From: Parahalioglobus pacificus
GTDB taxonomy: Bacteria; Pseudomonadota; Gammaproteobacteria; Pseudomonadales; Halieaceae
Assembly (NCBI RefSeq): GCF_014652275.1
Contig: NZ_BMYM01000002.1
Coordinates: forward strand, 248,001 to 312,000
DNA: 64,000 bases
Direction of reading: 5' to 3'
Shown: one piece after another, positions 55,195 to 58,776 of the stretch
How positions within the stretch are numbered: position 1 is the stretch's first letter
Layout of the letters: each line of letters starts with the position of its first letter
Program-made: the position numbers and the translations under genes
Notes under the pieces: model-generated
Database searches by the model: none
What the model saw: the letters and a program-made list of their open reading frames with translations, nothing else
What the model was told of the DNA's origin: nothing

Positions 55195-55857
55195 ATGGAC
55201 AGTCAGGCCTTAACGGCACCCAAATACCGCGACGCGCAGTTTCTTACCAGCGCCAGTCGCCTCTCCCAGTGTCCCGAAGACAGTGGCTGGGAAGTGGCAT
55301 TTGCTGGCAGATCTAACGCTGGAAAATCTAGCGCAATCAACAGCTTAACGAAAAATCACAAGCTGGCCAGAACCTCAAAGACACCGGGGCGCACACAGCT
55401 GATCAACTTCTTCTCTCTGTCGGAACAACAGCGACTGGTTGACCTTCCGGGCTATGGCTTTGCCAAAGTACCCAGGGCCGTCAAGGAGGAATGGACCCGC
55501 CAGTTAGAGAACTACCTGGCGAAGCGGGAGAGCCTGAGGGGCATGATTTTGCTGATGGACGTGCGCCATCCGCTGCAGCCTTTCGATCAACAAATGCTGG
55601 ATTGGGCGCTGGCTGCGAATATGCCTGTTCATATTCTGTTGACCAAGGCCGATAAACTCAAAAAGGGGCCCGCCAAAAACACCCTGCTGAAGGTTCGGTC
55701 GGGTCTGGCGGCACATGCCGAACTGGTGAGTGTGCAGCTGTTTTCAGCTCTCAAACACACAGGACACGATGAGCTGGTAGCCGTACTCAATGCCTGGCTC
55801 ACTGACACCAGTGTCTACGAAGAGGACGAGGAAGAGTTTATTGACGAGGCCCCGTGA
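55195..55857 (+). CDS. engB: Ribosome biogenesis GTP-binding protein
   Basis: EngB/YihA (220 aa) is an essential GTPase for 50S subunit assembly. G1 is 'GRSNAGKSS' (38-46), G3 'DLPGYGFA' and G4 'TKAD'. The acidic C-terminal tail ('[12 protein letters not shown]') is somewhat longer than in enterics. It converges on polA with the small RNA locus between them. Confidence 0.95.
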
Positions 55858-55877: not shown

Positions 55878-55917
55878 AAAAAAAGCCCGGTTGTCCGTAG
55901 GGGTGCAGACAACCGGG
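55878..55917 (-). terminator. Rho-independent terminator of the small RNA
   Basis: CCCGGTTGTC (55917-55908) pairs perfectly with GACAACCGGG (55895-55886) around a 12-base loop, followed on the minus strand by C and TTTTTTT. The plus strand has an A-run instead of a T-run, so it does not terminate engB. Confidence 0.9.
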
Positions 55918-55997
55918 AGTCCTAGAGTCTCTGGGGAAAGAGACTTGCTCGGAGTTGACGGCCTAAGGGGGAGCCGTCAGGGTGTAGCAATCGCTAC
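55878..55997 (-). ncRNA. Putative sigmaE-dependent small RNA between polA and engB (ErsA/Spot 42 position)
   Basis: No reading frame explains this stretch. On the minus strand it holds four consecutive hairpins: 55997-55984 (GTAGC/GCTAC), 55978-55957 (GACGGC/GCCGTC), 55945-55926 (AGTCTCT/AGAGACT) and the terminator 55917-55886 followed by seven T. The loops of the last three are C-rich (TCCCCCTTAG, TTCCCC, TGCACCCCTACG), suited to pair with G-rich ribosome sites. A sigmaE-type promoter precedes it. The locus is where enterics carry Spot 42 (spf) and Pseudomonas aeruginosa carries AlgU-dependent ErsA. I expect an RNA of about 120 nt with a similar envelope-stress role; homology beyond position is not shown. 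Confidence 0.78.
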
Positions 55998-56002
55998 GAG
56001 AA

Positions 56003-56031
56003 TTATGACCCGCGGGCATACAAAAAGTTCC
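56003..56031 (-). promoter_or_regulatory. SigmaE/AlgU-type promoter of the small RNA
   Basis: On the minus strand GGAACTT (56031-56025) is followed after 16 bases by TCATAA (56008-56003). GGAACTT is the ideal -35 of RpoE/AlgU and TCATAA fits the TCNRA-type -10. Transcription would begin near 55997, at the base of the first hairpin. A sigma70 -35 is not seen at the right distance. Confidence 0.72.
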
Positions 56032-56064: not shown

Positions 56065-58776
56065 TTAGTGGGCCTCGTCCCAGTTATCCCCCACACCCGC
56101 CTCTACCAGCAATGGCACGTCAAGGCTGGCCGCAGCGGCCATACGCTCACACAATAAGGCACTCACCGTTTCTATCTGCTCTGTCGCTACCTCCAGCACC
56201 AGTTCATCGTGCACCTGCATGATGACATGGGCATCCACGACGCCCTGCCCCAGCCAGTCATCAACGGCCAACATCGCGCGCTTGATAATGTCTGCGGCCG
56301 TTCCCTGCATGGGTGCATTAATAGCCGTGCGTTCCGCTGCCTGCTGGCGCATTTTATTGCGCGCGTTGATCTCGGGCAGGTATAGGCGCCGACCGAACAA
56401 GGTTTCCACATAGCCCTGTTCATGGGCCAATTCACGGGTGCTGTCCATGTACTCCTTCACGCCGGGATAGCGGTCGAAGTAGCGGTCGATGTAGTCCTGG
56501 GCCTCATTCCTGCCCAGGTGGAGTTGCTTCGCCAGGCCGAACGCGGACATGCCATAGATCAATCCAAAGTTAATGGCCTTGGCTTTCCTGCGCTGCTCGC
56601 CGGAGACCGCGTCGAGATCCGTATCAAACACCTCAGCCGCCGTGGCGCGGTGTACATCCAACCCCTCTCGGAAGGCGCTTAACAGGCCCGCATCCCCAGA
56701 GAGGTGGGCCATAATGCGCAGCTCAATCTGGGAGTAATCTGCAGCGACAATGCGGTAGCCCTCGGGTGCGATAAAGGCCTTGCGGATGCGTCTGCCCTCC
56801 TCCGTGCGAATGGGAATGTTCTGCAGGTTGGGATCGGATGAAGAGAGCCGGCCAGTGGCGGTCACTGCCTGGTGATACGAGGTGTGCACACGCCCACTGA
56901 CGGGGTTAATCATTTCCGGCAGCTTGTCGGTGTATGTGGATTTGAGCTTGTTCAGGCTGCGATGTTCCAGCAGCAGTTTGGGCAAGGGATAATCCAGCGC
57001 GAGCTCAACCAACACCTCTTCCGCGGTGGAAGGCGCACCCTTGGGGGTCTTTTTAACTACCGGGAGCTCAAGCTTCTCGAACAGGATCTCGCCGATTTGC
57101 TTGGGTGAACCGAGATTAAAAGGCTGCCCCGCTGCATCGTAGGCCTGTTGCTCCAAAGTCTGCAAGCGCGCCCCAAGCTCCGCACTCTGGGTAGCCAGCA
57201 TCTCACGCGACAACAGGGCCCCGTGGCGCTCAACCCGCGACAGTATCGGAACCAAAGGCAACTCGAGATCCGTGAGCACCCTCTCCAATGTGGGCTCTGC
57301 TTGCAACTTCGGCCACAGCTCGTGGTGCAGGCGCAGGGTAATGTCCGCGTCTTCTGCGGCGTATGGCCCGGCCTGCTCTAGAGGAATCTGATTGAAAGTG
57401 AGCTGTTTAGCGCCCTTCCCTGCAATATCCTCAAAATGAATGGTTTTCTGGCCAAGGTATTTGAGGGCCAGGCTGTCCATATCGTGCCGTGTGCCCACCG
57501 CATTCAGGACGTAGGATTCCAGCATGGTGTCAAAGGCAATGCCGCGCAGTGTTATGTCATGGTTCGCCAGAACCGATGCATCGTATTTTAGGTTTTGGCC
57601 CACCTTTCTGACATCGGCGTCTTCCAGCAAGGGCTTTAACGCACCCAGCACGGTCTCCGCGCTCAATTGCTCTGGCGCACCCGGGTAGTCATGGGCAAAA
57701 GGCACGTAGGCCGCCCTGCCCGGCTTCACCGCGAATGAGACGCCCACTACCCTCGCCTCCATATAATTCAGGCTCGTGGTTTCCGTATCAAAGGCAAACA
57801 GCTCCGCCGCCTTTAGAACCTCCAGCCACCGGGCAAACACAGCCTCATCCAACACGGTCTCGTAATCTGTCTCGATGGCCTCAACCACCGGCGCTTCGCC
57901 ATCTGTGAGTAGCTCATCCAGCCAGCCTTTGAACTCCATACGGGTGAACAGCTGCACAAGCGCCTCGTTGTCTGTGGCACGGTTTTCCAAATCCGAGGGG
58001 CCTTCCGGCATTTCCACGTCTGTCTTAATCGTGGCAAGCGTGTAAGACATGAATGCGTTGTCCCGCTCTGCCTCCAGCTTTGCGGCCATGGTTTTAGCCC
58101 CGCGAAATGACAGCGTCTCAACTTGATCCAGCGAATCGTAAATCGACTGCAGGCCACCCAGGCCCTGCAGCAGTCCCAGGGCGGTTTTCTCACCAACGCC
58201 AGCAACACCGGGAATGTTATCGACCTTGTCGCCCATCAAGGCGAGAAAATCGATGATCAACTCCGGGCCAATACCAAACTTTTCTACGACACCGTCGGGG
58301 TCCATCACCGTGTTAGTCATGGTGTTGACCAGGGTCACGCGATCATCAACCAGCTGCGCCATGTCTTTGTCGCCAGTGGAGATAATCACTTTGCGCGCTT
58401 CGCTGCTGGCTTGCCTGGCCAGGGTGCCAATCACGTCATCCGCCTCAACGCCTTCGATACACAACAGGGGAAGCCCCATGGCTCGCACGATGTCGTGTAT
58501 GGGCTGCACCTGCTCCCGCAGCTCGTCAGGCATGGATGGGCGGTTAGCCTTGTACTCGGGGTACATGTCATCCCGGAACGTCTTGCCCTTAGCATCAAAC
58601 ACCACAACAACCGGGCTGTCGGGATAGTCCAACTGCAAGCGCCGCAGCATGCTGATCACACCTTTAACGGCACCCGTGGCTTCACCCTTGGAGTTGGTCA
58701 GCGGTGGCAAGGCATGGAAGGCACGGTACAGGTACGAAGAGCCATCGACGAGGACCAGGGGAGGGGAATCAGACAT
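56065..58776 (-). CDS. polA: DNA polymerase I
   Basis: PolA (903 aa) removes RNA primers and fills gaps. All three domains are present: 5'-3' exonuclease ('[17 protein letters not shown]', '[19 protein letters not shown]'), 3'-5' exonuclease with intact '[12 protein letters not shown]', and family A polymerase with '[14 protein letters not shown]' and 'QVHDELVLE'. The length is normal (928 aa in E. coli). It is convergent with engB. Confidence 0.97.

Follow-up and report, generated by a model that had tools for sequence, protein, structure and literature searches.

Does the short gap between the convergent genes polA and engB in Parahalioglobus pacificus (Halieaceae) hold a small RNA (sRNA) gene of its own under stress control, and is this RNA related to the sRNAs that occupy the same place in other bacteria? 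The window analysed here is a stretch of 64,000 nt of this genome. With a probability of roughly 0.7, we suggest that the gap encodes a free-standing, RpoE-driven sRNA that acts as a C-loop repressor under envelope stress and that belongs to an old clan of sRNAs linked to polA and engB. The promoter motif, structure, terminator, conservation, synteny and cross-detection by covariance models that support this reading were computed; transcription, dependence on RpoE and repression by loop pairing (the latter from published work on sX13 and ErsA) are inferred.

The preliminary description of this locus placed a promoter, four hairpins and a Rho-independent terminator on the minus strand between two convergent conserved genes, in the gene order dsbA, c4, c5, engB, polA. 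The features concerned are the following:

55195..55857, plus strand: engB (ysxC/yihA) GTPase, the convergent neighbour (Pfam MMR_HSR1, consistent with engB)
55878..55998, minus strand: the sRNA, about 120 nt (placements of models R1 and R2; fold z -6.4)
55878..55884, minus strand: U7 tract of the terminator (terminator search and direct reading)
55886..55917, minus strand: SL4, the terminator stem, with loop CACCCCUA (terminator search, fold, alignment and loop census)
55926..55945, minus strand: SL3, loop UUCCCC, the most strongly conserved among the hairpins with C-rich loops (fold, alignments and loop census)
55956..55979, minus strand: SL2, C-rich loop CCCCCUUA (fold and loop census; 7/7 helix pairs covary in Halieaceae, in an alignment where the row of the window RNA is misaligned)
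55984..55997, minus strand: SL1, GUAGC-GAUU-GCUAC (fold and covariation alignment)
56003..56009, minus strand: -10 element GTCATAA (read directly; GTC invariant in 31 aligned loci)
56025..56031, minus strand: -35 element GGAACTT (read directly; GAACT invariant in 31 aligned loci; class-wide test)
56065..58776, minus strand: polA, DNA polymerase I, the upstream neighbour on the same strand (Pfam; stop codon 56067-56065)

Pfam matches bear out the gene order (DsbA, two cytochrome c, MMR_HSR1, DNA polymerase I), and engB, ending at 55857 on the plus strand, and polA, with its stop codon at 56067-56065 on the minus strand, converge on an intergenic region of 207 nt in which promoter, hairpins and U7 tract all lie on the minus strand. 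The promoter GGAACTT-N16-TCATAA is confirmed by direct reading of 56031-56003 (GGAACTT, 15 nt, GTCATAA, which equals 16 nt to TCATAA), as is the terminator with its stem at 55917-55886 followed by U7 at 55884-55878. From the promoter spacing the 5' end of the sRNA is inferred to lie at about 55997, with no transcript data at hand. The covariance model R1 matches the sRNA at G000:C2:303879-303998(-) with 103.8 bits (G000 is the P. pacificus genome, and the window begins at C2:248001); the sRNA is one of the 27 rows of R1. The second model, R2, matches 55879-55998(-) with 78.4 bits.

The predicted fold of the 120 nt has an energy of -52.9 kcal/mol compared to -29.6 +/- 3.65 kcal/mol in 200 shuffles (z -6.4), and it contains the four hairpins SL1-SL4. 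Two terminators, this one among them, were found in 1 kb, compared to 0.8 in shuffles. The promoter string occurs once in the 64 kb window with 0.39 occurrences expected, which is weak evidence alone, and its significance therefore rests on the class-wide enrichment described below. A simple consensus scan of 1 kb found no sigma-70-like site. No Rfam family reached its gathering threshold on the window and, the remaining matches being below threshold, the RNA can still be called undescribed in Rfam. A permissive Rfam scan of 241 nt returned only anti-hemB (12.9 bits) and Pseudomon-1/ErsA (12.4 bits); as sub-threshold hits (12-13 bits) these were rejected as an identity and kept as leads only.

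The preliminary description was to be given up if promoter and hairpins were not conserved between polA and engB in relatives; this test was run and did not refute it. Among 110 fetched engB/polA loci, 58 had both genes (15 of the 30 from one search had neither and were not used), and the sRNA is present in 37 of these 58, in 36 by a pattern of promoter, AGAGAC-type hairpin and terminator and in one (L042) by eye. Thirty of the 36 are distinct, the other six repeating an identical sequence from another collection. Carriers among cultured Halieaceae strains are Seongchinamella unica (L034), Parahaliea maris (L035) and Pseudohalioglobus lutimaris (L033). The sRNA is absent from five loci with an intergenic region of at most 67 nt (L054, L057, L058, L065, L069), four of which are labelled Halieaceae or one of its genera; the remaining 16 of the 58 are labelled as other or unspecified lineages. 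In an alignment of 31 loci (A1), GAACT and GTC of the promoter are invariant and stand at a fixed distance from SL1, an invariance that is partly circular because the search pattern required part of the promoter (GAAC...TC). Promoter, four hairpins and terminator are kept in Halieaceae loci with an intergenic region of some length, with the same reservation that the loci were partly selected by promoter.

The structure was assessed without the promoter in 27 of the 31 distinct Halieaceae RNAs (alignment A2, the source of the Halieaceae-only model R1), a shorter subgroup (L021, L045, L049, L050) being excluded. Because MAFFT had misplaced the window RNA's SL2 in this alignment and RNAalifold predicted no SL2, the structure was supplied by hand. 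The four-hairpin structure is paired in 90.5% of cells and 16 pairs have changed on both sides; none of 500 shuffles reaches either value, and versions of the structure slid along the alignment pair at most 46% of cells. All seven SL2 pairs covary; SL1 and SL3 are nearly invariant, SL1 being paired in 100% of cells with four of its five pairs invariant. R1 finds matches in 59 of 100 Halieaceae genomes at E <= 0.1 (55 at E <= 2e-5), representing 20 of 28 genera; the search gave no match in the other 41 genomes, which counts against our reading. By eye, the polA-engB intergenic region of L080 contains three similar promoter-hairpin-terminator units in tandem.

The suggestion that the site itself is conserved was examined in a class-wide census in which, because selection by the RNA had to be avoided, loci were chosen via engB. 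This gene was sought in 184 genomes of the class and found in 160, and 130 loci were taken, 53 of them with a convergent polA (the 77 without one in the stretch were not assessed); as two of the 53 intergenic regions were shorter than 100 nt, the census comprises 51 of at least 100 nt, that of P. pacificus included. A sigma-E-type promoter (score at least 10 of 12) is found on the strand running from polA to engB in 33 of the 51 and on the other strand in four, compared to a mean of 3.16 and a maximum of 7 in 50 sets of shuffled intergenic regions; at a score of at least 11 the numbers are 21 sense, 2 antisense and 0.32 shuffled. In 32 of the 33 promoter-positive regions a terminator bounds an RNA of 76-140 nt, and these 32 RNAs contain 85 hairpin loops with CCC compared to 15-28 in 40 shuffles. 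R1 (E <= 1, searches of 212 and 40 kb) identifies an RNA in sense orientation in 37 of the 51; its census input was 40 plus 12 loci, and the match of P. pacificus itself was taken from the order-wide search. In the 40 loci it gives 34 matches in 31 loci, all sense and intergenic, three of which extend less than 40 nt into engB. The conserved site proposed earlier is thus supported across the class, where polA-engB regions repeatedly show this type of promoter (33/51) and an RNA with C-rich loops (37/51 by R1), and promoter plus terminator or R1 marks 43 of the 51 regions. Among the eight unmarked, three (L220, L223, L341) resemble weaker cases by eye. In L216 (G299) the engB strand carries both the R1 match and a promoter with a sigma-E score of 11, as an inverted RNA gene would; in L274 an R1 match also lies on the opposite strand, where the promoter score is 10. 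In L342 (G455) the RNA is repeated in tandem, with four units in the gap from polA to engB at 1000-1115, 1217-1326, 1420-1539 and 1634-1747 on the minus strand.

Among the loci fetched for R1 matches beyond Halieaceae, 14 of 23 from the order-wide search and 15 of 19 from the class-wide search lie at polA and/or engB. Several matches of R1 and R2 are located away from both genes, and this counts against our reading. RF01719, the ErsA model, is over its threshold in 7 of 194 genomes of the order, all in one family (f21) that is inferred on this ground to be Pseudomonadaceae; in 21 other genomes it gives weak matches at E <= 0.1. Matches of R1 and RF01719 overlap in six genomes (G017, G043, G216, G110, G113, G077), of which G017 belongs to Halieaceae; the places of overlap are at polA and/or engB in the first four and not in G113 and G077. 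R1 alone finds no match on ErsA at E <= 0.1 in the order-wide search, and in a smaller search it reaches one of seven ErsA loci with 12.7 bits (E 0.63).

R2 has no Halieaceae row: its sources are 36 R1 matches from 33 loci of other families. At threshold 31 of these 33 sources have no Rfam match and two are anti-hemB, and none is over the ErsA or sX13 threshold; some were scanned against Rfam under a second locus identifier for the same place, and the ErsA model matches one of them (L163, G110) below threshold, with 24.7 bits. R1 matches served to bootstrap R2, and the source alignment of R2 was fitted to the R1 structure. Given these sources and this bootstrapping, R2 provides largely independent evidence where ErsA is concerned, but not where the window RNA is. 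It recovers ErsA in all seven ErsA loci with 31.0-34.0 bits. Over 397 genomes of the phylum R2 has matches in 63 at E <= 0.01, P. pacificus included; 22 of the 29 best-scoring phylum loci that were fetched lie at polA and/or engB, and 20 phylum loci compared with Rfam thresholds include 4 sX13 and 10 anti-hemB. R2 thus finds both ErsA and sX13 although neither has an over-threshold member in the training set. Anti-hemB is part of the training set, and the independent evidence for it consequently consists of the two members that R1 alone matches (L198, 35.8 bits; L203, 29.9 bits). In alignment A4, 27 of 28 pairs covary, with a score of 0.765 compared to 0.187 when shuffled, bearing in mind that the alignment was fitted to the R1 structure.

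Some R2 matches stand apart. Four loci (L121, L122, L118, L126) carry two or three tandem matches each, and neither polA nor engB was found near L118 and L126. A second match in the P. pacificus genome (L466, G000:C1:1435885-1435985, minus strand, 34.5 bits) has C-rich stretches and a terminator-like end, and lacks a sigma-E-type promoter and an Rfam match. In another class of the phylum, L455 (G737:C2:163619-163744, minus strand, 43 bits) has three C-rich stretches resembling hairpin loops and a terminator; neither polA nor engB lies close to it, and Rfam gives no match there.

As to the sigma factor, the P. pacificus genome encodes RpoE (312.7 bits) and also Hfq (99.1 bits), and two GGAACTT-type promoters stand upstream of rpoE (L345), at distances of about 198 and 97 nt from the RpoE match as reported. 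Of the four loci that exceed the sX13 threshold, three (L442, L447, L453) have no sigma-E-type promoter and the fourth (L456) scores 10; L443 and L445, sX13-like by eye and without an Rfam scan, also have none, and the score is 7 for L454, which adjoins polA and matches no Rfam family. Among ten anti-hemB loci, six score at least 10 and three have no such promoter at all. This scoring across the clan had no shuffled control of its own. As the promoter is missing in three of four sX13 loci and three of ten anti-hemB loci, putative sigma-E control is not universal; it looks common across the clan and is possibly ancestral.

Could the hairpins be merely the 3' end of polA with its terminator, without a separate regulator? 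They lie on the same strand, only some 67 nt separate the polA stop codon from the inferred 5' end downstream of it, and the terminator would serve polA too; yet a promoter motif that is enriched class-wide intervenes between polA and the hairpins, there are three further hairpins, among which SL2 covaries at 7/7 pairs, and four loci (L002, L005, L033, L041) keep the whole unit despite 837-892 nt from polA stop codon to promoter, making this explanation highly improbable. It is also improbable that the sRNA is real but depends on the housekeeping sigma factor, with a motif that resembles a sigma-E promoter only by chance in the P. pacificus genome: an expectation of 0.39 motifs per 64 kb window and the lack of the motif at three of four loci over the sX13 threshold leave room for this, whereas the simple consensus scan detected no sigma-70-like site in 1 kb, the distance from motif to SL1 is fixed in the aligned Halieaceae loci (in part a circular argument) and the motif is enriched on the sense strand throughout the class. 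We give next to no credence to the idea that the RNA doubles as the message for a small protein, as annotated for Spot 42 (SpfP), because the sRNA contains neither ATG nor GTG, because from TTG it offers just a closed frame of 22 codons and a second frame that runs open to the 3' end, and because homologues differ in length by numbers that are not multiples of three; what speaks for it is the annotated spfP reading frame in E. coli spf.

A weightier objection concerns kinship, since unrelated C-loop sRNAs with sigma-E promoters might have been recruited independently to the same site, making ErsA, sX13 and the window RNA analogues. R1 alone does not match ErsA at E <= 0.1, scores across families are mostly 20-50 bits, composition alone could make C-rich loops and terminators score alike, and Spot 42 occupies the same place yet is unmatched. 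We nevertheless regard independent recruitment as unlikely, given that R1 and the ErsA model overlap in six genomes, in four of them at polA and/or engB, that R2 finds both ErsA and sX13 without an over-threshold member of either among its 33 sources, and that 22 of the 29 fetched phylum loci are at polA and/or engB.

Returning to common descent of these RNAs, the evidence suggests that three separately catalogued sRNAs and the window RNA may be one old, widespread regulator. We lean, if only slightly, towards a specific history in which a single polA-engB sRNA in the ancestor of the Gammaproteobacteria (sensu GTDB) gave rise to ErsA, sX13, anti-hemB and many unannotated RNAs, of which dozens were met here and the window RNA is one; Gammaproteobacteria in this sense include Burkholderiales. 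In this scenario, sigma-E control and three C-rich loops would be ancestral, the RNA would have been retained on one side where polA and engB were split, the promoter would have been lost in Xanthomonas-type RNAs, and Spot 42, which holds the site in enterics, would be a replacement or a descendant no longer recognisable.

For the window RNA we propose a mechanism in which (i) RpoE, of the sigma-E/AlgU type, would transcribe the sRNA from its own promoter just downstream of polA, (ii) transcription would end at its own Rho-independent terminator, (iii) the four hairpins would expose three C-rich loops, CCCCCUUA, UUCCCC and CACCCCUA, (iv) these loops would pair with G-rich ribosome-binding sites and block translation during envelope stress, and (v) the sRNA would be a member of one old polA/engB-linked C-loop clan together with ErsA, sX13 and anti-hemB. 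Repression of G-rich ribosome-binding sites is inferred from the likeness to sX13 and ErsA; by this analogy it is the most likely activity of the RNA in envelope stress, expression and effect both being inferred.

The P. pacificus genome contains 27 copies of the complement of the SL3 loop, TGGGGAAAG (one of them being the antisense of the sRNA), compared to 12 of the reversed string; copies followed by an ATG at 1-7 nt number 92 in 41 genomes of the family compared to 44. At gene starts of P. pacificus it precedes a lipoprotein-like ORF (L361) and an mraZ-like ORF (L355; label assigned from the protein sequence). The former, an Ala/Asp-rich ORF at L361:1040-1498 (minus strand), has an apparent ribosome-binding site, TTGGGGAAAG, that complements the SL3 loop, and is a candidate target on the strength of sequence complementarity only. 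At the mraZ-like start the exact 9-mer was found in one of 30 loci read (41 genomes matched), that of P. pacificus only, and the shorter GTGGGGA is common there in relatives. MraZ has binding repeats of its own, which explain GTGGGGA equally well. Of 30 loci fetched with ATG-linked TGGGGAAAG, 27 were read; 8 have an ORF of at least 60 residues at the ATG, no gene shared among the 27 was recognised by eye, and no target is claimed.

According to the sX13 paper (PMC3771888), the C-rich loops of sX13 need no Hfq to act on G-rich motifs close to start codons; the paper already remarks on Spot 42 and alpha-r7 at polA, the latter with C-rich loops, and raises the question of other bacteria. ErsA is induced by AlgU and regulates algC post-transcriptionally (PMC5819304). 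Anti-hemB of B. cenocepacia is given as a 105 nt transcript, ncS04 (PMC5688073), and PMC3521395 contributes Anti-hemB coordinates only; ncS35 (PMC5760752) maps elsewhere in the genome. In the literature searched, outside which most subscription papers fall, no paper names two of sX13, ErsA, Pseudomon-1 and anti-hemB, and an sRNA 'downstream of polA' appears in the sX13 paper alone; searches at title and abstract level for ErsA/Spot 42 synteny, polA-engB C-rich sRNAs and Halieaceae sRNAs returned nothing on the window RNA. The first part of the question raised in the sX13 paper can apparently be answered with yes for 43 of 51 sampled convergent polA-engB intergenic regions, in many of which the pattern includes an envelope-stress-type promoter. 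The link joins three Rfam families that the searched literature nowhere mentions together, would let results on ErsA and sX13 serve as predictions for many genomes, and provides environmental marine bacteria with a testable candidate envelope-stress regulator.

How does the window RNA compare with the known systems? In E. coli, Spot 42 (spf) lies between polA and yihA/engB in the same orientation to both, and the earlier statement that Spot 42 occupies this place holds; a link with the window RNA is not supported, as R2 gives no match on the E. coli Spot 42 locus at E <= 10, and the Spot 42 model (RF00021) has no match in the window even in the permissive scan. Spot 42 is under control of CRP and is not known to depend on sigma-E. 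Anti-hemB/Burkholderia RNA 7 (RF02837) is linked to engB at 7 of 10 over-threshold loci; polA was not found at these 10 and is present at the anti-hemB locus L203, and the window RNA stays below the threshold of 49.5 with 12.9 bits (E 1.3). Like the window RNA, sX13 of Xanthomonadaceae (RF02232) lies downstream of polA and has C-rich apical loops; three of the four over-threshold sX13 loci among the R2 matches are beside polA, and engB was not found within their fetched stretches. sX13 was published with three stem-loops whereas the window RNA has four, and the sX13 model does not match the window RNA even at E <= 10. ErsA/Pseudomon-1 (RF01719) lies, like the window RNA, between polA and engB in six of seven over-threshold loci (in L117 polA was found and engB was not). 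The Rfam model of ErsA begins with about 33 unpaired positions and has two hairpins in contrast to four in the window RNA, which matches it with 12.4 bits (E 4.8) and does not meet the gathering threshold of 50. C-rich loops are common to both RNAs, the three ErsA loci read (L111, L113, L464) have a sigma-E-type promoter (at least 10 where scored) as the window RNA does, and the window RNA agrees with ErsA in polA-to-engB position and orientation and, judged from its sequence alone, in a promoter of the sigma-E/AlgU type. The parallel with ErsA drawn in the preliminary description has become firmer than it was claimed to be, in that R2, built from other families, recovers both the window RNA and ErsA.
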